A stretch of 64,000 nt of DNA from Gammaproteobacteria bacterium. Lineage in GTDB: Bacteria; Pseudomonadota; Gammaproteobacteria; Steroidobacterales; GCA-2729495. The notes below the pieces were generated by a model. The model saw only the letters and a list, made by a program, of their open reading frames with translations, did no database searches and was not told the DNA's origin. The translations under genes and the position numbers were made by a program. Below are positions 3,324 through 63,339 of the stretch, piece by piece (within the stretch, counting starts at the first letter, position 1; each line of letters starts with the position of its first letter). The stretch spans positions 1 to 64,000 of the forward strand of contig JAHDYM010000001.1 of the NCBI GenBank assembly GCA_023383705.1, in the 5' to 3' direction.

Positions 3324-4377
3324 CCCGGAGGGACTCGAGCAACCGGGTGACCGGTGCGGCCAGGCCAACCCGGGCCGGCGCGGCCCTGTTATACCAGAGC
3401 CACCGGTCGCCCTCCATCGCGCGCAGCGGCACGTGCGCCAGGCGGCATTCGACCGGCGTGATGTCGAGGTCGAAGTGGGTGAAGCCGTGGCGGAACACGG
3501 GACGCACGCTCTGGGCCCCGGGCGCGCTGCCAAACTGCGCGCTGCACCACTCGCCCACCGCTTCCACCGACGCAACTTCCGGCAAACCCCACAGGCCACC
3601 CCAGATGCCGGTATCCGCGCGGCGCTCGAGCAGCACGGCACCATCGGCCCGCGTGCAGAGCAACAGCACGCAGTGGCGCAGCGGGCGCGCCCTGGCCGGC
3701 TTGCGGGCCGGCAGTTGCGCGGTGAGTCCTGCGGCGAGCGCCACGCAGTTGTCGCGCAGCGGGCAGGACGCGCAGGCCGGCTTCCCCCGCGTGCAGACCG
3801 AGGCACCGAGATCCATGATCGCCTGCGTGTAGTGGGCGACCCGCTGCGCGGGCGTACAGCGCTCGGCCAGCGTCCAGAGTTCGCGTTGCACGGCCGACTC
3901 CGTGGGCACCCCGGCGATGCCGAACACGCGGGCGAGCACGCGCTTGACGTTGCCATCGAGTATCGGGTGACGCTGCCCGCTGGCGAGCGCGAGGATCGCA
4001 CCCGCCGTCGAGCGGCCGATGCCGGGCAGGGCTGACAGCGCCTCGAAGTCGGTCGGCAGCACACCGCCATGCTGGTCGCGCACCCGTTGCGCGGCGCGAT
4101 GCAGGTTGCGGGCGCGGGCGTAGTAGCCGAGGCCCGACCAGCGGTGCAGCACTTCGTCGGGCGAGGCCGCGGCCAGCGCCTGCACCTCGGGGAAGGTCTG
4201 CATGAATGTGTCGTAGTAGCGCGCGACCGTCGCCACCTGCGTCTGCTGGAGCATGATCTCGGACACCCAGACGCGGTAGGGCGTCGGGTTTTTCTGCCAG
4301 GGCAGGTCATGGCGGCCGTGCTGGTCCCACCAGGCGAGGAGCAGGGGGGCGAGTTGTGTGCTGAAACCAGCCGGCAT
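3313..4377 (-). CDS. mutY: A/G-specific adenine glycosylase
   Basis: HDLPWQ...[31 protein letters not shown], Fe-S motif [17 protein letters not shown]. Confidence 0.96.
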
Positions 4378-4508
4378 GATGTGGCGGGAGCCTATCAAGT
4401 TGCCGGCTGGAAGTGTGCGGGGCCGCACCGGGCAGTCTTGTTCATGGCCGCGAGGTGGCGCAGACTCTGCGCCGCCGCGCCCCGGGGGGGCCACGATCAC
4501 CTCGCCAC

Positions 4509-6368
4509 ATGCTGCGATCCCGCCTCAAAGCCCCAGCCCTCATCGGCGCCATCGGGGTTGTTTACGGCGACATCGGCACCAGTCCGCTCTATGCCTTCGG
4601 TGCTGCCATCAAGGCCGCCCGGTCGGTTACGCCCGGACTGGCGATATTCGGCTCGCTGTCGCTGATTTTCTGGAGCCTGTTGCTGGTCGTCAGCCTCAAG
4701 TACCTGGTGCTCATGGTGCGGGCCGACAACGAGGGCGAAGGCGGCATCCTCGCGCTGCTCGCCGGACTCGAACAGTACTTCTTCCACTGGGCCGACTGGT
4801 CGCGCAAGCTGCTGCTGGCCGGCGCGCTCGGCGCCGCACTCTTCTATTGCGATGCTGTCATCACGCCGGCCATCTCGGTGCTCAGCGCGGTTGAAGGACT
4901 GGAACTGCTGGACCCGGGCTTTTCCGGCATCATCCTGCCACTGGCCTGCGGCATCCTGCTCGGCCTGTTCCTGCTCCAGCGCAGCGGCACCGAGAAAATC
5001 AGCCGCTACTTCGGCCCGGTCATGCTGCTGTGGTTCGGTACGCTGGCCGGCCTGGGCGTGATCTCGATCGCCCGCACGCCGCAGATCCTGCAGGCACTGA
5101 ACCCGGCCTTTGCCCTGGCCATGCTGTCGAGCGAGCCAGGCATTGGCCTTGCCATCATCGGCGCGGTATTCCTCACCGTTACCGGCGGTGAAGCCCTGTA
5201 TGCCGACATGGGCCATTTCGGCCGCTCGGCGGTCCGGGTTACCTGGTTCGGCTGCGTCTGGCCGGCACTGGTACTGAATTATTTTGGCCAGGGCGCGCTG
5301 GCGCTGCGCAACGGTACCTCACTCGACAATCCGTTCTTTCGCCTGGCGCCGGAACCACTGCTGGCTGCGCTGATCGTTCTGGCCACGGCTGCCACCATCA
5401 TCGCCTCGCAGGCAACGATTACCGGCGCCTTCTCCATCACCCGGCAGGCCGTGCAGCTCGACCTCATGCCGCGCGTGAACATCGTCCAGACCTCGGCCAG
5501 CGAACGCGGACAGATTTATGTACCGGTCACCAACTGGGTGATGCTGTTGCTGGTACTTGGCGTGACGCTGGGCTTTGGCAGCTCCGGTGCCTTGTCCGCA
5601 GCCTATGGCGCGGCCGTTGCCGGCACGATGTGGATCACCACGGTGCTCGCCGCGGTCGTGGCACGGATGCAGTGGCGTTGGTCGTGGCTGGCAGTCGGTG
5701 TGGTGTTCGGCAGTTTTTTTGCCGTCGACACCACCTTCGTGTTCAGCAATCTGACCAAGATCGGCGACGGCGCCTGGGTGCCCATCCTGATGGCGGCGCT
5801 GCTGTTTCTGGTGTTCGTGGTCTGGCACGACGGGCGTGACATGCTGGGCAGGAAGCTCGATGCCATGGCGGTGGGCATGGACGGGCTCGAGCAGCTGCTG
5901 GCTGGCACCAGCCGGGTGAAGGGCACCGCCATATTCCTGGTCAGCCGTCCGGATTCCGTACCCGGCGCATTCCTGCGCAACATCGGGCACAACCATGTCG
6001 TACACGAGAACGTGATCTTCCTGCACATCGAATTCCTGCGCATACCCAAGGCGGATGCCGCAACCCAGTTGACGATCCAGCCGCTGCGCGAGTCCTTCCA
6101 TATGGTGCGGGCGCGTTTCGGCTTCATGGAGACCCCGGACGTCGGCGCCATCATCCAGCAATGCCGCCGGCAGGGTCTGCAGATCACCCCGCGCGATTAC
6201 ACGCTGTTTCTCGGCCAGCACGTCGTGGTGCCAACCGGTCCGCAACGTCCCGGGTACTGGAAGCGCGGCTTCTTTGCCTGGCTGCAACGTCGCTCAACCG
6301 GTGCAGCGGAATTCTTCGGCATGCCGCTTCGTCGTGTGGTCATCGTCAGCACCGTGATCGAGATCTGA
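4509..6368 (+). CDS. kup: KUP/HAK/KT family potassium transporter
   Basis: GVVYGDIGTSPLYAF, RADNEGEGGILAL. Confidence 0.96.
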   Translation: MLRSRLKAPALIGAIGVVYGDIGTSPLYAFGAAIKAARSVTPGLAIFGSLSLIFWSLLLVVSLKYLVLMVRADNEGEGGILALLAGLEQYFFHWADWSRKLLLAGALGAALFYCDAVITPAISVLSAVEGLELLDPGFSGIILPLACGILLGLFLLQRSGTEKISRYFGPVMLLWFGTLAGLGVISIARTPQILQALNPAFALAMLSSEPGIGLAIIGAVFLTVTGGEALYADMGHFGRSAVRVTWFGCVWPALVLNYFGQGALALRNGTSLDNPFFRLAPEPLLAALIVLATAATIIASQATITGAFSITRQAVQLDLMPRVNIVQTSASERGQIYVPVTNWVMLLLVLGVTLGFGSSGALSAAYGAAVAGTMWITTVLAAVVARMQWRWSWLAVGVVFGSFFAVDTTFVFSNLTKIGDGAWVPILMAALLFLVFVVWHDGRDMLGRKLDAMAVGMDGLEQLLAGTSRVKGTAIFLVSRPDSVPGAFLRNIGHNHVVHENVIFLHIEFLRIPKADAATQLTIQPLRESFHMVRARFGFMETPDVGAIIQQCRRQGLQITPRDYTLFLGQHVVVPTGPQRPGYWKRGFFAWLQRRSTGAAEFFGMPLRRVVIVSTVIEI

Positions 6369-6628
6369 GACGGGCCGTTCCCGCCGCCCGGCCGGAACTG
6401 CCCGCCGGCACATCGCGTGGATGTGAGCTGCAACCGCAAAACTTCGAAAACTTCGACCCGGCACCTGACAGAGGCAGAACTGTGCGCCCGTGCAGCCCGC
6501 GCGGCCTGCGGATGTGAAGCACATCTCATCGATTTGTCATAGTCGGGCCTTAGGCTAGTCCCCGTATCTTCGTGGGGACGAACTGGCCGGCCGGGCATGC
6601 CCGGCGCATGCGGGCCGATCGCGTGGCA

Positions 6629-8365
6629 ATGAAGCTTCTGCTGGTTGAAGACAATCAGGCCGACGTCGACTTTCTCGCCGCCTCGCTGCGCCGTCAGCGC
6701 GCCAGCGATGTGGAAATGGTCAACGTGCAGTCACTGGCGAACGCCACCGAGCGCCTCGGCAGCGAGAAGTTCGACATCGTGCTCCTCGACCTGCACCTGC
6801 CGGACGCCTCGGGCCTCGAGTGCATCGACGCGATCCAGGCCATCGACCAGGAAATCCCCATCGTCGTGCTGAGCGGCCAGGACGACGAGGAGTTTGCCGT
6901 CAGCATCCTCAACAAGGGCGCCCAGGACTATCTCGTCAAGTGGGAGGGCCAGGGACGCACCATCCTGCGCTCGGTGCGCTACGCGATCGAGCGCAAGCGC
7001 TCCGAACTGCGGCTCAACTACATGGCGCAGTTCGATGCGCTGACCGGCATCCCGAACCGCCAGTACTTCAACGACCAGCTCACGCGGGCAACTGCAAGGG
7101 CGCGCCGTGACGGCCGCAAGGTGACCCTGCTGTTCCTCGACCTGGACGGCTTCAAGGTGGTCAACGACACGCTCGGCCACGATGCCGGCGACCGCCTGCT
7201 GAAAGAAGTGGCAAGCCGCATCCAGCGCTCCGTACGGACCGGCGACGTCATCGCCCGGCTCGGCGGGGACGAATTCGCCGTGCTGCTGGAAGGCCTGAGC
7301 GGCCCGCTGGAAGTCGAGACCATGGCCAACAGCCTGCTTGCGCTCATCTCGCAGCCGTATCACATCGCCGACCGCCAGCTCGACATCACGACCAGCATCG
7401 GCATCACGATGTATCCGAACGACAGCTCGGACACGCAGATGCTGCTGAAGAACGCGGACATCGCCATGTACCAGGCAAAGGAGAACGGCCGCAACAACGT
7501 GACCTTCTTCACCGAGCGGATGCACGCCGAGCTGATGGAATACCACGACCTCGAGCGGGACATCCGCGAGGCCTTGCGCCTCGACGAGTTCCACGTCGTC
7601 TACCAGCCGAAGGTCAACGCGCACAACCGCCGCCTGCAGGGCCTGGAGGCGCTGCTGCGCTGGACCAGCCCGACGCGCGGCAAGGTGAGCCCCGGCACAT
7701 TCATTCCCGTGGCCGAGGAGAGCGGGCACATCATTCCGCTCGGTTACTGGGTCCTCGACCAGGTCTGCCAGACGCTCAAGGCATGGGAGGAGAAAGGCCT
7801 GCCGTGCGTACCGGTATCGGTGAACGTTTCGGCGCGCCAGTTCCAGCAACCAGACTTCCACAAACGCGTCGCACAGATACTTGCCGCACATGCCGTGGAT
7901 CCCTCGCTGATCGAGATCGAGCTGACCGAAGGCCTGGTGATGGAGGACAGCGAGGCGGCCCAGATGGAGCTGTTGCGCCTCAAGCGGATCGGCCTGCGTA
8001 TCTCCATCGACGACTTCGGCACCGGCTATTCCTGCCTGAGCTACCTGCGACGCTTCCCGATCGACGTGCTGAAGATCGACCGCTCCTTCGTCATGGAAAT
8101 CGGCGTCAGCCAGGATGGCGAGAGCATCATCGACGCAATCATCTCGCTGGCGCGCAGCCTGCGCCTCGAAACAGTCGCCGAAGGCGTGGAAACAAACGGG
8201 CAGCTCGACTTCCTGCTGGAACGCGGCTGCCACATCGTGCAGGGCTACCTGTTCGGCGTCCCGATGGAGCAGCCGCTGGTCGAGCCGCTGCTGGCCGAAC
8301 TCAGCAATGCCGGTGTCGACTCGACCGCAACCCGCCGCGCACTGGCTGCGGCCAACCACCGCTGA
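6629..8365 (+). CDS. response regulator with GGDEF and EAL domains
   Basis: Receiver (LLDLHLPDASG), intact GGDEF (RLGGDEFAV), EAL (GLEALLRW) and DDFGTGYS motifs. Confidence 0.95.
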   Translation: MKLLLVEDNQADVDFLAASLRRQRASDVEMVNVQSLANATERLGSEKFDIVLLDLHLPDASGLECIDAIQAIDQEIPIVVLSGQDDEEFAVSILNKGAQDYLVKWEGQGRTILRSVRYAIERKRSELRLNYMAQFDALTGIPNRQYFNDQLTRATARARRDGRKVTLLFLDLDGFKVVNDTLGHDAGDRLLKEVASRIQRSVRTGDVIARLGGDEFAVLLEGLSGPLEVETMANSLLALISQPYHIADRQLDITTSIGITMYPNDSSDTQMLLKNADIAMYQAKENGRNNVTFFTERMHAELMEYHDLERDIREALRLDEFHVVYQPKVNAHNRRLQGLEALLRWTSPTRGKVSPGTFIPVAEESGHIIPLGYWVLDQVCQTLKAWEEKGLPCVPVSVNVSARQFQQPDFHKRVAQILAAHAVDPSLIEIELTEGLVMEDSEAAQMELLRLKRIGLRISIDDFGTGYSCLSYLRRFPIDVLKIDRSFVMEIGVSQDGESIIDAIISLARSLRLETVAEGVETNGQLDFLLERGCHIVQGYLFGVPMEQPLVEPLLAELSNAGVDSTATRRALAAANHR

Positions 8366-55440: not shown

Positions 55441-57668
55441 CTCGCGCGGCTGTCCTGATCATCGTCACAGCCGCAGTACTGCTGGGCATCACGGCCCTGC
55501 TGCTGCTGGCACAGTCCGCACCCAGCCTGCAGGGCTTCGGCCGCCGTCACCTGATCATCATCGGGGTGAACATCAGTGCCGGGCTGCTGCTGCTGGCACT
55601 GATCGTCGGCAACCTGGTGCAACTGGTACGCGATTACCGGCGGCGGGCGCCTGGCTCCAGGCTGCGGCTCCGGCTGGTCACGATGTTCGTGGGCCTGACA
55701 CTGGCACCTTTGTGCATCGTTTACCTGTTTGCACTCAATGCCATCAACGGCGGCATCGACAACTGGTTCGACACCGACCTGGGCACCGAAATTTCCTCGG
55801 CGCTGAAACTCAGCCGCGAGACCCTCGACACCCAGGCCAGTTCGCGACTGCTGCAGACCGGTGCGCTGGCTGCGGCACTCGGCAACCTGGATGGCGAGCC
55901 CCTGCTGCGCGCGCTGGGCGTGCTGCGCACCGATGCCGGTGCCGCCGAACTGGCGGTCTTCAACCGGGAACTGCAACTGACCGGTTCAAGCATGCAGGGT
56001 GAACGTCTGCCGCCGCGCCTGGCAGAAGACGTGATTGCCGAACTGCGCCGGACCCGGACTTTTGTCGCACTCGAGCCCGAGGCCAATGACCGGTACCAGA
56101 TCCGTGCCGCCATCATCATTCCCGGCGACGGCGATGCGCTCGCGCCGCGCTACCTGCAGGCCATATTTCCGGTCGGCGAGCGTCAGGCGCAACTCGCCAA
56201 TGCGGTCGAAGACACCTACCTCCGCTACACCGAGCTGCAATACCTGCGCGACCCGTTGAATCTCAGCCTGGCCCTGACACTGTCGCTGGTCCTGCTGCTG
56301 TCGCTGTTTGCAGCGGCAGCGGGCGCCTTCTACCTGTCGCGGCGCCTCTCGGCGCCGATCGAGGTACTGGCAATCGGTACCGAAGCGGTCGCCAGGGGCA
56401 ATTTCGACACGCACCTGCCGCCCGGGGCGGCAGACGAGATCGGCTTCCTGATCGAATCCTTCAACACCATGATCGAGCGCCTGAAGCAGGCGCGGGAGGA
56501 CGGGCGCAGGAGCCAGCAGCAACTCGAGAGCGAGCGGGCCAACCTGGCCACCATTCTCGGCAGCCTTTCCACCGGCGTGATCGCGCTCGCGCCCGACGGC
56601 ACGCTGCGCATTGCCAACGATGCGGCCGGCCGGGTGCTGGGCATCGACCTCACGGGCCTGACTGGCACGCCATGGCGGGATGCCTGCCACGGCAACACCA
56701 TCTTCGCGCAATTTGTCGAGGCACTGGAGCCGCAGCTGCGGGGCATACCAGCCGAATGGCGCGGCCAGGTGGTCCTGCGCACCGATAACAGCCGGCGCAT
56801 CCTCAACTGTGCCAGCTCGCCCCTGCCGGGCGATGCCGGTGGTACCGGTGGTGGCGTGATAGTGGTCTTCGATGACGTCACCGAACTGCTGCTCGCGCAG
56901 CGGGACGCAGCCTGGGGCGAGGTCGCGCGCCGTCTTGCACACGAGATCAAGAATCCGCTGACGCCGATACGCCTCGCTGCCGAACGCATGAGGCGCTGGT
57001 ATCTCCCCAACCTGACGGAAGAGGACGGCAAGGTCCTCGACCGGTCGACGCATACGATCGTGCAGCAGGTCGAAGCGATGCGCGACATGGTGAATGCCTT
57101 CAGCGAGTATGCGCGCGCTCCGGCCATCAATATCGGCCGGGTCGACCTGAGCAGGCTGATCCGCGAGGTGGCCTGGCTCTACCGCGCGCAGGAAGGCCAG
57201 CCAGGCGTGCAACTGAAGCTCGATGAAGACATGGAGATCGAGGCAGACGCCGTGCGGGTGCGACAGCTGCTGCACAACCTGATCAGGAACGCCCAGGAGG
57301 CGCTGGAGGGACAGGCCGACGCGCACATCGAGATCACGGCGGGCTTCGTCCCCGGTACGGAACGGGCCCTGGCAGAGATCAGCGTCAGCGACAATGGCCC
57401 GGGGATTGCCGCCGAACTGCTGCCACACCTGTTCGAGCCTTACGTGACGAGCAAGAACAAGGGCACGGGGCTTGGACTGGCGATCGTCCGCAAGCTGGTC
57501 GAGGAACACGGCGGTACCGTCTCGGCAGAAAACATCCCGCCGCACGGCGCGCGGCTGGCAGTGCGGCTGCCGGTACGCAGCCGCAGCAGCGACGCACAGG
57601 GCGAGAACCACTCGCTGTGGTCGGATGACAGGCCCGATGCACGCACCCCGGCACGGAGCGAGGCATGA
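55422..57668 (+). CDS. ntrY: NtrY-like sensor histidine kinase
   Basis: N-terminal TM region, HAMP, PAS, H-box VARRLAHEIKNPLTPIRLAAERM, GTGLGLAIVRKLVEEHGG. Confidence 0.93.
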   Translation: MATRRVARAAVLIIVTAAVLLGITALLLLAQSAPSLQGFGRRHLIIIGVNISAGLLLLALIVGNLVQLVRDYRRRAPGSRLRLRLVTMFVGLTLAPLCIVYLFALNAINGGIDNWFDTDLGTEISSALKLSRETLDTQASSRLLQTGALAAALGNLDGEPLLRALGVLRTDAGAAELAVFNRELQLTGSSMQGERLPPRLAEDVIAELRRTRTFVALEPEANDRYQIRAAIIIPGDGDALAPRYLQAIFPVGERQAQLANAVEDTYLRYTELQYLRDPLNLSLALTLSLVLLLSLFAAAAGAFYLSRRLSAPIEVLAIGTEAVARGNFDTHLPPGAADEIGFLIESFNTMIERLKQAREDGRRSQQQLESERANLATILGSLSTGVIALAPDGTLRIANDAAGRVLGIDLTGLTGTPWRDACHGNTIFAQFVEALEPQLRGIPAEWRGQVVLRTDNSRRILNCASSPLPGDAGGTGGGVIVVFDDVTELLLAQRDAAWGEVARRLAHEIKNPLTPIRLAAERMRRWYLPNLTEEDGKVLDRSTHTIVQQVEAMRDMVNAFSEYARAPAINIGRVDLSRLIREVAWLYRAQEGQPGVQLKLDEDMEIEADAVRVRQLLHNLIRNAQEALEGQADAHIEITAGFVPGTERALAEISVSDNGPGIAAELLPHLFEPYVTSKNKGTGLGLAIVRKLVEEHGGTVSAENIPPHGARLAVRLPVRSRSSDAQGENHSLWSDDRPDARTPARSEA

Positions 57669-59023
57669 ACCCGGCGCACATACTGGTGATCGATGACGAG
57701 GCGGACATCCGCAGCACCATCAGCGACATCCTCGGCGACGAGGGCTATGCCGTCAGCGTCGCGGGCGATGCCGCGGCGGCCCGTGCGGAAGTGCAGCGGG
57801 CAGCCCCGGACCTGATATTGCTCGATGTCTGGATGCCGGACGTCGACGGCATCACCCTGCTGCGCGAGTGGACCGAATCCGGTGCACTGCGCTGTCCGGT
57901 GGTGATCCTGTCCGGTCACGGCACCGTTGAAACCGCCGTGGAAGCCACGCGGCTGGGGGCGGCGGATTTCATCGAAAAACCCCTGTCGCTCGCCAGGCTG
58001 CTCCGGACGGTGCGCAAGGCGCTGGACACAGGCAAGCGCACGCCGGACACGGGGCCGCGGCGCATCCTGCAAACCGGCTCGCTGACGCCAACCGGACGCA
58101 GCGAGGCCATGCGCATGCTGCGCGAGCAGGCCGCTTCCGTCGCCGCCCGCCCGGAAGCCGTGCTGCTCGTCGGTGAACCCGGTTCCGGGCGCAGCAACCT
58201 CGCGCAATACATCCACAGGCTTGCCCGCAACAGCGACCGACCCTTCATCACCCTGAACTGCAGCGCCGTCCCCGCGGAAAATGCCGCGCAGCTGCTGTTT
58301 GGCATCAGCCAGGCGGACGTCGAAGAACCCGGCGTGCTCGAAAGGGCTGCCGGCGGCACGCTCTACCTGCGCGACCTCGACGAGCTGCACCCGGCGGCAC
58401 AGCGCCTGCTGGCCGGCGCGCTCGAGCAGCGAGGCTTCGCGCGCGTCGGGCATGCGGGAACCATCCCCCTCGAAGCCAGGGTGATCGCCTCGCTGGCACC
58501 AGCCCGTGCCGACCAGGTGCGCCCGGAGCTGCTGTCGCGGCTGGCCGTGCTGGAATTGCGGGTGCCAGCCTTGCGCGACCGGCGCGAGGATGTCCCGGAG
58601 TTGCTGCGGGAATGCGCCGAACGGCTGGTTGAGCACGAAGGCCTGCCCTTCCGCCGCTTCGGGCTGTCAGCCCAGAACCGGCTGCGCAACTACCCGTGGC
58701 CGGGCAACGTCCGCGAGCTGGCGACACTGGTACGCCGGCTGCTGGTCGCCGGCGGTGCTGAGGAAATCAGCCTGGCCGAACTCGAGCAGCAACTCGCACC
58801 GTTGCAGCCAGGCACTGCGTCCCTCATCGAGCAGGATCTGCTGGGCATGCCCCTGCGCGAAGCGCGCGAACAGTTCGAGCGCAGTTACCTGAGCCAGCAG
58901 CTCGCACTCTGCGGCGGGCGCGTGGGACAGCTCGCCAAGCGCGTTGGCATGGAGCGCACGCACCTGTATCGCAAGCTGCGCTCACTGGGCATCGACTTCA
59001 GGCAGATCGCCGAAGACGACTAG
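57665..59023 (+). CDS. ntrX: NtrX-like response regulator (AAA+ type, Fis HTH)
   Basis: Receiver LLDVWMPDVDGITLL; degenerate AAA+ GEPGSGRSNLA; C-terminal Fis-type HTH. Confidence 0.92.
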   Translation: MNPAHILVIDDEADIRSTISDILGDEGYAVSVAGDAAAARAEVQRAAPDLILLDVWMPDVDGITLLREWTESGALRCPVVILSGHGTVETAVEATRLGAADFIEKPLSLARLLRTVRKALDTGKRTPDTGPRRILQTGSLTPTGRSEAMRMLREQAASVAARPEAVLLVGEPGSGRSNLAQYIHRLARNSDRPFITLNCSAVPAENAAQLLFGISQADVEEPGVLERAAGGTLYLRDLDELHPAAQRLLAGALEQRGFARVGHAGTIPLEARVIASLAPARADQVRPELLSRLAVLELRVPALRDRREDVPELLRECAERLVEHEGLPFRRFGLSAQNRLRNYPWPGNVRELATLVRRLLVAGGAEEISLAELEQQLAPLQPGTASLIEQDLLGMPLREAREQFERSYLSQQLALCGGRVGQLAKRVGMERTHLYRKLRSLGIDFRQIAEDD

Positions 59024-59043: not shown

Positions 59044-59106
59044 GTAGGAGCGGCTTCAGCCGCGATCTTTATCGACAACAATAATCGCGGCTGAAGCCGC
59101 TCCTAC
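59044..59106. repeat. REPIN-like inverted REP doublet
   Basis: GTAGGAGCGGCTTCAGCCGCGAT (59044-59066) and its exact reverse complement (59084-59106), 17-nt spacer. Confidence 0.92.
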
Positions 59107-59260
59107 AGGTATCTCTGCAGGCCGGGCGGCAGATGCGAAGTGTCCACTGCGTCCAGGCCCGGCGGTTTGGACTGCGAACTGAGCGTCTGCCAGAACACCG
59201 GCACGGCGCCGTCGAGGCGCCCGCTGCGCGCATCGGCGAACAGGCAGGCCAGGGCCTTGG
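59084..59260. repeat. 177-bp direct repeat, copy 1 (truncated 3' end of the PLP enzyme gene)
   Basis: Aligns without gaps to 62253-62429 with 7 mismatches by eye. Confidence 0.93.
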
Positions 59261-59357
59261 AGCAACGGAAGCACTCAGGAATTCGCTGCCGGCGGGCATC
59301 ACGCCTTCTTGGTGGTCACTCTATTCCGGCACCCGCGAAAGCCTGTTGCAATAATCA

Positions 59358-60695
59358 CTACGATAGTCCCGCAGCCTGCCCAACAATCTCGGCGTTACGG
59401 CGCGCGATTGCCCTGAATGCCGGCGAGATCAATTCGTGGTCCGCAGCGCTTTCCCAGAAGCGCCTGGCGAGAATCGTCATGTCGCGCCAGATATCAAGAG
59501 AATCCGCATTGGGCAAGGGAAGCTCCATTTCTCGATTTGGAATCGCGTTGGCGACAGTGGGAGCGTACATCATGGGCAGCATGTCGTAGATTGGCGCGAG
59601 AACGAATGGCCCTTCAAATGTCAGATAGAAGGATAGGTTGCCGAAGTGCATATCGGTATTACCGATAAGACGCCCATATGTTGCAACCCGCCGGATACGT
59701 TCGACGTCGTCGTTCGAAATTCTATTCAGCGAACGCAGAGATCTTGCTGCGCTAATCCAACTTTCCCGCTTCCCGATCAGGTACGCATCAATCGCGGACA
59801 GACTCACAACGCCGCGGCGACCAATAACCCCCTTTCGGTCAAATCTTTCAGCCTCCAGAAACACTTGCCCATCTCCGGGGAACAAGTCCGTGTTGGTCGA
59901 TGTGATTCCGGCATCTCTTAATGCAGAAATCGCCAGGTGCTCGCTCACGAGCAGATCGAACCAGCGCTGCGAACCTGGATCTGCACCCACAGGCGAGAAT
60001 TTCACGAGTACGTGCCGGGAGATCCCCTCCCTTGTCAGAAGGCACGTGAACTTTGGATGCTCGCCACCTGCAGATGATCCAGCAACGTCACCTTCGATCG
60101 CAGCATTGGCAAGCGACATGTAAGCGATGTGCCGATCCAGGATGTCTATTGCTTGAATCGGCGTACGCGCCTGCTTCAGGAATCGCTGCAAAGACTCATC
60201 GCCGACCAGAATATTGCCGATACCGTCGTCGCCCCGACGAACAAGGTAAGTCAGCACATCCGAGTCTTTCCAATCGGTGATCCGCTCCGGCAGACCAAGC
60301 TCTGGATAGCGTGTTGGAACTGTGCGCCCGATGAAGCCTTGAGGTCTCAGATCCTGCAGAAAAAACGGCAGGCCATCGGTGACTTCGGATCGATCCTTCT
60401 GCTTGGCGTCGAACCAGTACTGGTCTCGATGCAACGAGGTGAGTCGGCCGAGCAATTCGGGCTCGCCGGTTTCGCTGACCGCGAACACTGGCCAGGTCGA
60501 GCCGATACCAGGGATGTCCAGAGGAAGGCCATAGCGCGCCGCTCGCCTTTGCCCGATCCGGACGATTGCATCCCCCATCGCAGCGAGGGCTCGCGATACG
60601 GACGGTTGACTTAGACCCAATGCCCGTTGAATTTCTGCGCTCGTGGCTACGCCACGAGCGAGCACTTCGGCGATCGAATCAGGAAGCCCGGCCAT
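59358..60695 (-). CDS. HipA-family kinase, YjjJ-like, with fused N-terminal winged HTH
   Basis: N-terminal SAEIQRALGLSQPSVSRALAAMG; EAERFDRKG; GRLIGNTDMHFGNLSFYL; APIYDMLPMMYAP. Confidence 0.9.
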   Translation of the reverse strand: MAGLPDSIAEVLARGVATSAEIQRALGLSQPSVSRALAAMGDAIVRIGQRRAARYGLPLDIPGIGSTWPVFAVSETGEPELLGRLTSLHRDQYWFDAKQKDRSEVTDGLPFFLQDLRPQGFIGRTVPTRYPELGLPERITDWKDSDVLTYLVRRGDDGIGNILVGDESLQRFLKQARTPIQAIDILDRHIAYMSLANAAIEGDVAGSSAGGEHPKFTCLLTREGISRHVLVKFSPVGADPGSQRWFDLLVSEHLAISALRDAGITSTNTDLFPGDGQVFLEAERFDRKGVIGRRGVVSLSAIDAYLIGKRESWISAARSLRSLNRISNDDVERIRRVATYGRLIGNTDMHFGNLSFYLTFEGPFVLAPIYDMLPMMYAPTVANAIPNREMELPLPNADSLDIWRDMTILARRFWESAADHELISPAFRAIARRNAEIVGQAAGLS

Positions 60696-60807
60696 TCAAG
60701 AATCTTAATTGAATAATAAAAGAATAGCAAAATAGACATATTTTCACCTTCCGATCAATGAATTAACGCCATCCAGAGATCGTGTGGTGAATAGAAAAAT
60801 CTTGACG

Positions 60808-60862
60808 TTGCACCATCGAACCGGCTAGCCTGCCGCGCAGGCTAGCCGGTTCGATGGTGCAA
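60808..60862. repeat. perfect 26-bp inverted repeat, 3-nt loop
   Basis: TTGCACCATCGAACCGGCTAGCCTGC-CGC-GCAGGCTAGCCGGTTCGATGGTGCAA. Confidence 0.97.
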
Positions 60863-60960
60863 GCCCGGGTGCTCTTGACAGCAAACCCGAGCCAGGCGGC
60901 TCTCAGCCAGAGACCGGTAGGCCTTACCCCGCCTTGATCCGTGGTCCGTACCCCTGATCA

Positions 60961-62007
60961 TCAAGCAGCCACCTGAGTAACGGAACCGCTGCCAGCCTGA
61001 TACTGCACATGCCCGATTGCGCCGTTGATCAAGGTGAATTGAGGCGGCTGGTGCCCGACATCCACATCGTAGAGAACCGGGTAACGAAGATCCCCAAGAG
61101 TGGCGGACAGAGCCTCCGTGTATGAAAGGCTGTCTGGCGACTCAGGTACTGGTCCGGTGCTACGACCGATAAGCAGCCCCGAAAGACTGTCGAACCAGCG
61201 ATGACGTCGCAGTGCTAGGAGGGCCCGCACGAGTCCCGGCGGGGCCATGTTGACGTTCTCAAGATACAGAATTGTGCCGCACTCGCGCGCTTGCCGAACG
61301 AACGCCGGAATGTCGCCGAACCTAGTCCCGGCCAGCCATGCGATGGTGTCCAGGCACCCGCCGATCAGGCGGCCGCGAAAATCGACGGGCTCCATTGAAC
61401 CATCAAGGCGTTTCCACACGGTTGGTTCAGTCAGATTCCATGGGGCATCAACCTGTACGGCGAAATCAATGTATTGCTTCTGGAATGCCCTCGAGGACAC
61501 TTGCCGGACAGGAACTTGCAAGTCGGTCGCAAGAATTGCGAGGGCCGCGGCGGCTAGCTTGTCAGTCTGTGTGGGCGCCAGTTCCATGAGGTTTGGGCCA
61601 TGGGCAGTCGCCCAGCCCGAAACTAGGGTAAGAGGCAGCTGCACGGTGCTCAGATCCGAAAACCCTAGAAGCCACTTTGGCTCGGTGGAGCGCAGTGCCT
61701 GGAAGTCGATGGACTCCAGCAACTCGCTAGCAAGGACACCGCCCCAAGGGGGCAGAATTGCCGCCACCGCTGGATCAGTCAGGAATCGCATCAGCTCAAG
61801 CGCACGTTGCTCCCGGGGTGCGCTAGCATCCTTGTACTGCTGACGAAGGCACGCGCCCTCAACGATTCGATAACCCAGGCTTCGCAGATGCCCAAGAACG
61901 AGATCGAGTCGGGCAAGTAGCGGCCCGGATACACCGGACGATGGCGCAGTGACTGCAATGAGGTCGCCCGGCCGAAGCGGCTTAGGAAAGCGAATCAGGG
62001 ATGGCAT
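60961..62007 (-). CDS. S66 family peptidase (LD-carboxypeptidase / MccF-like)
   Basis: LRPGDLIAVTAPSSGVSG; AILPPWGGVLASELLESIDF; PKWLLGFSDLSTVQL; GGCLDTIAWLAGT. Confidence 0.9.
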   Translation of the reverse strand: MPSLIRFPKPLRPGDLIAVTAPSSGVSGPLLARLDLVLGHLRSLGYRIVEGACLRQQYKDASAPREQRALELMRFLTDPAVAAILPPWGGVLASELLESIDFQALRSTEPKWLLGFSDLSTVQLPLTLVSGWATAHGPNLMELAPTQTDKLAAAALAILATDLQVPVRQVSSRAFQKQYIDFAVQVDAPWNLTEPTVWKRLDGSMEPVDFRGRLIGGCLDTIAWLAGTRFGDIPAFVRQARECGTILYLENVNMAPPGLVRALLALRRHRWFDSLSGLLIGRSTGPVPESPDSLSYTEALSATLGDLRYPVLYDVDVGHQPPQFTLINGAIGHVQYQAGSGSVTQVAA

Positions 62008-62252
62008 GGTAGGAGTTTATCCACGCGATGGGCTGAGTATTAGGAAATTCAAACACTGGCATGACTGAAGTCTGCCAGCCCGGAACCCCGGACGCCACGG
62101 CCATCCGGCCTGCTGGCCGCCGGCACTGCGGGTCCAGCGAGCAACAGATCTCCCCACTTGCCTGGTGGCCTGGGGCCAGCGACAAATCCGGGCGGAACGC
62201 GTGGAAGCTCAGATCGGCCGGTGAATCAGGCCGAAGACAGCCAGTCTGATCG

Positions 62253-62429
62253 ATCGCGGCTGAAGCCGCTCCTACAGGTATCTGTGCAGGCCGGGCGGCA
62301 GGCGCGAAGTGTCCACTGCGTCCAGGCCCGGCGGTTTGGGCTGCGAATTGAGCGTCTGCCAGAACACCGGCACGGCGCCGTCGAGGCACCCGCTGCGCGC
62401 ATCGGCGAACAGGCAGGCCAAGGCCTTGG
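62253..62429. repeat. 177-bp direct repeat, copy 2 (REP arm plus 3' end of the intact PLP enzyme gene)
   Basis: See copy 1 at 59084-59260. Confidence 0.93.
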
Positions 62430-63339
62430 CGGTATAGGTGGTCTCGAGCTTCAGTCCGGCAAGTTCGCCGGCAAGGTGCATCGCCTCGATGCCTTCCGGT
62501 GTGGCCTGGGCGTAGCCGGCACCCAGAAAGCCGCTGCGAAGCTCAAAACGCGACTGCAAACCGGAACAGGCCGGCACGCTCGCATCGCGTTCCTGCAGCG
62601 CCTCGCTGGCAGCAGCACACAGCGCAGCGATGGCAGCCGCCGAGACACGCTCCGGCGGCAGGATCGGCACGGCCACGACCCTCGCATCGCTGCCGGCCAG
62701 ATACAGACCCAGCACCAGGCCGGCGACGCTGCCCATGGTGCCGCAGGCCATGTAGATGCGCACCGGCCCCGGCACACCGCGAGCAGCGAGCTGGGCCGCG
62801 ATTTCAAAGCCAGCCGCAACGAAACCGATGGTGCCGAGCGGTGATGATCCACCCCAGGTGATCTCGTAAACCCGGCCGGGGCCACCGGGATGCCGTGCGC
62901 GGATGTCCGCAGCCGCTGCCAGCATCTGCGGATAGCCGGCCGCCGGCGTCAGGCGTGTGCCGAGCTGCAGATGCCAGCGCAGCGTGTCGGCAACCCATGG
63001 CGTCTGCACCTGTTCGGAAAGGATGGCATGACAATCCAGTCCGAGCTGCCGGGCATGGATCGCGGTTGCCAGTGCATGGTTGGATCCGGCGGCCCCGAAG
63101 GTCAGGACCGTGTCACAGCCACGCTCCAGCGCGTCACCAAGCAGATACTCGAGCTTGCGGACCTTGTTGCCACCGTAGGGCTGCCCGCTCAGATCATCGC
63201 GCTTGACGAGCAGCGCGGGCAGCCCGAGCGCCGCGGCCAGGCGTGGCGCCGGCTCGAGCGCGGTCGGCAGGCTGGCAAGCTCGCGCCGCGGCAGCCGGGC
63301 GGCCAGTTGCGGGAAACGGGCATCGAAGGGACGAATCAT
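62272..63339 (-). CDS. PLP-dependent D-cysteine desulfhydrase / ACC deaminase-like protein
   Basis: LLVKRDDLSGQPYGGNKVRKLEYLLGDAL; LTFGAAGSNHALATA; ACGTMGSVAGLVLG. Confidence 0.93.
   Translation of the reverse strand: MIRPFDARFPQLAARLPRRELASLPTALEPAPRLAAALGLPALLVKRDDLSGQPYGGNKVRKLEYLLGDALERGCDTVLTFGAAGSNHALATAIHARQLGLDCHAILSEQVQTPWVADTLRWHLQLGTRLTPAAGYPQMLAAAADIRARHPGGPGRVYEITWGGSSPLGTIGFVAAGFEIAAQLAARGVPGPVRIYMACGTMGSVAGLVLGLYLAGSDARVVAVPILPPERVSAAAIAALCAAASEALQERDASVPACSGLQSRFELRSGFLGAGYAQATPEGIEAMHLAGELAGLKLETTYTAKALACLFADARSGCLDGAVPVFWQTLNSQPKPPGLDAVDTSRLPPGLHRYL

Follow-up and report, generated by a model that had tools for sequence, protein, structure and literature searches.

Direct repeats of a REP-tagged gene end flank a hipA-S66 insertion carrying an IS91/ISCR-type ori end in a gammaproteobacterium

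Introduction

Many resistance genes are said to owe their spread to ISCR elements, whose capture cycle has been deduced largely from the integrons of clinical plasmids. In the proposed model for complex class 1 integrons, one-ended transposition produces a circular donor, which recombines with the resident 3'-CS and leaves partial copies on either side (PMC13023784). Captured genes read outward from ori in 84% of ISCR1 contexts; as of 2018, experimental evidence of transposition was stated to be absent for any ISCR element (PMC6218425). One-ended events of IS801 end at GAAC/CAAG (PMC6354349, PMC3189936). REPs, for their part, are targets of IS3, IS110, IS4, IS256 and IS5 elements (PMC1525189), five groups that do not include IS91. 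The HipA kinases HipH and YjjJ are monocistronic (PMC8262856).

Here we analyse a locus in a 64,000-nt stretch of DNA (the window) from genome G000, in which a hipA gene, an S66 peptidase gene and the ori end of an IS91/ISCR-type element lie between direct repeats of the end of a gene for a PLP-dependent enzyme, in an arrangement topologically like that of a complex class 1 integron.

Results

A direct repeat bounded by a REP arm

The two copies of the repeat (Table 1) align without gaps over 177 nt, with 170 identical positions (96%), just as a sequence-only reading of this DNA had reported with its seven mismatches. They are the longest direct repeat in the region, and a search of the whole genome for full-length matches to the 177-mer returned just these two copies, which is far above chance. 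An intact PALP gene encoding 355 aa, which D-cysteine desulfhydrase-related models match below their own cut-offs, ends within the right copy, and the left copy has no gene attached; this bears out the earlier view of the right copy as the 3' end of the PLP gene plus its REP and of the left copy as a severed duplicate. Inverted-repeat analysis agrees with that reading on the boundary as well: the outer edge of the duplication falls exactly on a REP arm, the left copy completes a REPIN whose arms form a perfect 23-nt inverted repeat, and the right copy has a single arm. An apparent match of the left copy past 59260 was rejected as alignment over-extension with no sequence homology.

On the minus strand, the severed end begins with C followed by CAAG (59259-59256), so that the motif lies one base inside the repeat; the chance of a breakpoint within one base of GAAC/CAAG is ~2% (7 in 1068 nt). 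Two of the seven mismatches are derived in the left copy, both altering conserved residues, and two in the right copy, with the remaining three having no assigned direction. The mismatches may have accumulated by drift after the duplication, or may stem from a donor of a different strain. We note that the PLP gene takes its TAG stop codon from the REP arm (GTAGGAGC, 62268-62274), as it does in G001, G002 and G007 (L029:1302-1312).

Table 1. Features of the insertion and its surroundings, with positions in the window
Feature	Position	Strand	Basis or description
ntrX-type response regulator, left neighbour	57665..59023	+	Response_reg + Sigma54_activat + HTH_8
Complete REPIN	59044..59106	.	arms 59044-59066 and 59084-59106, loop 17 nt
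Left direct repeat	59084..59260	-	REP arm and severed 3' end of PLP gene
hipH/yjjJ-type HipA kinase, predicted toxin, intact	59358..60695	-	HipA_C; NF007297; motifs GNTDMHFGN and YDMLPM retained
Inverted repeat between S66 stop and hipA start	60808..60862	.	perfect 26 nt, 3-nt loop
S66 peptidase, MccF/LD-carboxypeptidase type	60961..62007	-	PF02016/PF17676; best solved relatives MccF
Remnant, 3' (ori) end of IS91/ISCR-family element	62037..62252	-	homology to G003:C14 and G000:C33 ends
Right direct repeat	62253..62429	-	lone REP arm and 3' end of intact PLP gene
Intact PLP-dependent enzyme, D-cysteine desulfhydrase/ACC-deaminase-like	62272..63339	-	PF00291

Relatives retain the empty site

The sequence-only reading had proposed looking for the empty site in related genomes, and ntrX lies next to the PLP gene in five of them: the two genes are convergent across 70-357 bp in the congeners G001 (~85 bp), G005 (~171 bp), G006 (~357 bp) and G007 (~70 bp), and in G017, from the same family (~124 bp). 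The G001 spacer holds a complete REPIN. Neither hipA nor the S66 gene was found in any of the seven congeners. Because the site is empty in five relatives and both genes are absent from 7/7 congeners, the hipA/S66 segment, together with the duplication, is an insertion; the proposal that it entered a REPIN between convergent ntrX and PLP genes is backed by the same empty sites. The G+C content of hipA (57%) and S66 (60%) is below that of the PLP and ntrX genes (69%).

The type of REPIN in the spacer differs between G000 (GCGGCTGAAGCCGC) and G001 (GCGCCTGAAGGCGC, L029:1304-1372), with both arms changed together. In G003, the spacer is 3.3 kb rather than ~0.1 kb long (L031, G003:C71:36000-52000, ~3795-7061) and contains neither hipA nor S66; from this, the ntrX-PLP site may be an insertion hot spot.

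The inserted genes

The HipA protein matches NF007297 over its full length with 477.6 bits (curated cut-off 401), is 42% identical to a plasmid-borne E. coli YjjJ, and combines this full-length match with the N-terminal HTH and the kinase motifs of HipH/YjjJ proteins. Judged by its sequence, it is a YjjJ/HipH kinase and a predicted toxin. In the S66 protein, the Ser/Glu/His triad aligns with that of 3gjz (GFSD, YLEN and VGHQ against GYSD, FIED and CCHT). The inverted repeat between the two genes, which has no Rfam family at gathering score, may be either a terminator or a HipA operator; hairpins in the region gave merely sub-threshold microRNA-like matches, and a known RNA was rejected.

hipA is present in 4/116 relatives, and S66 is absent from all 116 at a threshold of 1e-30; at 1e-60, there is no relative of the S66 protein in 368 other genomes of the class. 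We considered whether hipA and S66 form a fixed pair and rejected this. The pairing looks incidental, because hipA is not beside S66 at the two nearest named S66 loci and because of the lack of S66 relatives in the 368 genomes. A phage origin and a defence system were likewise rejected, with no hipA relative found in viral contigs and no PADLOC match. Between the repeats there are no genes for replication, mobilisation or an integrase.

An IS91/ISCR end beside the right repeat

That hipA and S66 are all that lies between the copies, as had been claimed, holds for genes; the last ~216 bp of the insert are the end of an IS91-type transposon. The outer tip of this segment, at ~62037, faces S66, whose start lies 29 bp outside the IS end and which reads away from it. 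In a DNA search with the insert, 62033-62239 matched further places in the genus, and the aligned copies have the common tip TATAGGAANTTCAAAC and inner sequence GTCTGCCAGCCCGG. In G003:C14, a Y2_Tnp gene is followed after ~200 bp by a motif, GGCTGGCAGACTCAGC..GGTTTGAACTTCCTATAC, that positions 62037-62090 match (E 4e-9 for the two ends). The G003:C14 transposase shares 54-62% identity with IS91-family transposases from plasmids, among them one with the annotation ISVsa3, and the G003:C14 tip matches these ISVsa3-type ends, the 3' tips at two such plasmid loci reading GTTTATTCTTCCTATAC. Compared directly with ISVsa3, the window tip scored 10.5 against a shuffle maximum of 13.5, such that the link to ISVsa3 runs through G003:C14. 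On the strand of the published ISCR1 oriIS, GTGGTTTATACTTCCTATACCC (PMC13023784), the window reads GTGTTTGAATTTCCTAATAC and G003:C14 reads GGTTTGAACTTCCTATAC. The tip pattern occurred in 0/5 shuffles of 1.03 Mb. With a hairpin predicted at 62055-62082 (z -3.35), 62037-62090 has both the conserved tip and the stem-loop of an IS91/ISCR 3' end. These sequence comparisons assign 62037-62252 to an IS91/ISCR ori end, orientation included.

The segment carries no transposase. Matches to Y2_Tnp are present in four congeners; we class the segment as a remnant rather than an element because the window has no Y2 HUH transposase and G000 gave no Y2_Tnp match. On inspection, no second IS end or terIS was noticed in the insert. 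Several copies of 62037-62090 lie upstream of genes for PEP-CTERM proteins, but a role as their shared promoter was rejected, given that the G003:C14 copy trails a transposase gene; no sigma-70 promoter was found inside the IS end.

Elsewhere in the same genome, at G000:C33, a related IS end abuts a degenerate REP-like arm (15/16) behind a GNAT gene; the expected frequency of such an arm is 0.002 per 30-nt window. This IS91 group may favour REPs, or REPs may simply be frequent behind genes here. In G002:C96, two 99% identical 193-bp IS91-type ends lie in direct orientation 5.6 kb apart (L140:1190-1381 and 6789-6980) and could form a composite unit.

The same order recurs in the genus

On the minus strand, the locus reads whole PLP gene, REP arm, IS end, ori, S66, hipA, severed PLP end, REPIN and ntrX. 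We looked for this order at eight IS-end loci flanked by sequence on either side, of which G003:C62 holds two; G007:C85, whose outer flank is just 0.3 kb long, was left out, as were two loci running off their contigs. Counted by site, at three of the eight the C-terminal end of a whole gene lies on the IS side and a severed repeat of it on the outer side, with a REP arm: the window (PLP gene; 177 bp, 96%), G003:C62 (EAL gene; 70 bp, 93%) and G005:C56 (guaA; 110 bp, 87%). Order and orientation are identical in all three, with the severed copy outside ori. Such an order was found at 0 of ~38 other sampled REP loci (Fisher p 0.004, or 0.02 excluding the window, values that are indicative only since the REP sample is non-random). 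REP loci were sampled by regions, for a total of 198 REP arms in ~0.8 Mb, mostly from G000 and G003; among the 8,618 same-genome pairs of these arms, the window and one locus in G003 were the only REP-anchored duplications other than tandem REPs.

GAAC/CAAG is absent from the severed ends of the G003 and G005 loci, and at both, further genes separate the IS end from the REP. In neither G002 nor G007 does secDF come after the EAL gene, so we regard the G003 locus as rearranged rather than as a clean insertion into an empty site. At G005:C56 (L136:4036-4975), a glutathione-transferase-like gene, YghU-type by eye, sits between the ori end and the severed guaA copy, ~40 bp outside the IS91-type ori end.

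Discussion

We propose, as the probable origin of the locus, rolling-circle gene capture by an IS91/ISCR element, followed by recombination of a one-ended transposition circle into the end of a resident gene. An IS91/ISCR-type rolling-circle element would have captured hipA and S66, and a copy of its ori end would have sat beside the REP that follows a PLP gene. Starting at ori and lacking a ter end, one-ended transposition would have crossed the REP, entered the PLP gene and halted at CAAG, ~176 bp away from the outer boundary of the REP arm, and the PLP fragment would have joined S66-hipA. The circle (S66-hipA-CAAG..PLP end-REP-IS end) would then have recombined with the resident PLP-REPIN by the 177-bp homology, to give PLP-REP-(IS end)-S66-hipA-severed PLP end-REPIN-ntrX. 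We infer the circle, the captured-gene step and the homologous crossover; the boundaries of the repeat fit a circle sharing exactly the 177-bp segment. Of the origins that the sequence-only reading had put forward, Campbell-type integration of a small circle therefore gains support from the boundaries and the empty sites. REP-mediated integration is not shown, as the REP contributes just 23 bp to the homology, and the circle, the order and the severed end are better explained by an IS91/ISCR end. Tandem duplication with divergence would leave the foreign genes and the IS end unexplained.

That the duplication begins exactly at the REP arm would also be expected from REP-anchored, homology-facilitated illegitimate recombination, in which linear S66-hipA DNA annealed at the REP and its far end joined a sister PLP copy 177 bp away, the IS91 end being just donor DNA. 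The degenerate arm abutting the related IS end at G000:C33, rare as such arms are expected to be, points the same way, since the donor segment probably had a REP of its own. Nonetheless, this route predicts neither the CAAG at the severed end nor a severed copy that is always outside the IS91-type ori (3/3), and we consider it unlikely. A circle or plasmid remnant that carried a PLP-REP fragment by chance and integrated in Campbell fashion, with the IS uninvolved, seems to us quite improbable: the boundaries are those of a single crossover within 177 bp, and a circle from a related strain is compatible with the seven mismatches, but the source of a 3.2-kb circle with a gene-end fragment is left unexplained, and the insert has none of the replication, mobilisation or integrase genes that were looked for.

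Foreign DNA might instead have been caught between nicks 177 bp apart, made by a staggered break or at the REP by a RAYT, with fill-in producing a very long target duplication. There is a REP at one edge, and the genome has four Y1_Tnp (RAYT-type) matches above cut-off; against this, there is no REP at the severed edge, no sampled REP locus without an IS end shows such a duplication, and the usual target duplications of transposases are far shorter than 177 bp, which makes this origin very hard to credit. We give equally little weight to an assembly chimera of strain variants. The genome is fragmented and probably metagenome-derived (162 contigs, 1.8% estimated contamination), and REPs are repeats, but the contig is 91 kb long, the seven differences are spread along the repeat copy, the severed edge is joined to unique DNA, and two other genomes have the same order.

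If capture and circle integration did shape this locus, REP-tagged gene ends may have served repeatedly across the genus as docking homology for circles made by IS91/ISCR elements, perhaps since this IS91 group inserts beside REPs. This more tentative reading, which we hold to be possible rather than probable, would amount to a chromosomal, integron-free ISCR capture cycle acting at several loci (PLP, guaA and EAL), with a varied cargo of HipA kinase, S66 peptidase, glutathione-transferase-like gene and PEP-CTERM proteins. Chromosomal scars of the same topology in one genus, one of them with a verified empty site, offer an independent test of the ISCR capture model, and suggest that some homology is enough for any gene end to stand in for the integron 3'-CS. 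They also point to a route by which a HipA-family toxin can enter the chromosome, in this case that of an environmental bacterium and at a locus without an apparent integron, the stretch between the repeats being free of integrase ORFs.

How does the locus compare with described systems? Its kinase resembles HipH/YjjJ in having an N-terminal HTH and no adjoining partner antitoxin (PMC8262856), and differs in that its gene adjoins an S66 gene inside an IS91-flanked segment. As with IS that target REPs, there is a REP at the boundary of the insertion (PMC1525189); by contrast, the REP arm here is left whole, the duplication is 177 bp, and IS91 lies outside those families. Events of one-ended transposition by IS801/IS91 in Pseudomonas syringae keep the right (ori) end, lose the left end, and co-mobilise a fragment of the adjacent upstream gene that stops at GAAC/CAAG (PMC3189936, PMC6354349), a pattern that the window may share. 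There the fragment inserts as such, whereas in the window the captured genes stand between it and the IS end, and an extra recombination step is therefore needed. Complex class 1 integrons (3'-CS1 - ISCR1 - captured genes - 3'-CS2) have the same topology as the locus: a resident segment is in part directly duplicated, its copies flanking an IS91-type end and captured genes in fixed orientation, the captured genes lie outside oriIS, and one copy is cut abruptly (PMC13023784). S66 reads outward from ori, like the majority of genes in ISCR1 contexts. The differences are in the parts, since the repeat is a chromosomal PALP gene end with a REP arm and not the qacEdelta1-sul1 3'-CS, the cargo is a HipA kinase and a peptidase, and of the IS just the ori end is left. 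The locus resembles a complex class 1 integron in its workings and is not one; it is a known kind of event in a new setting, with a REP-tagged gene end in place of the integron.
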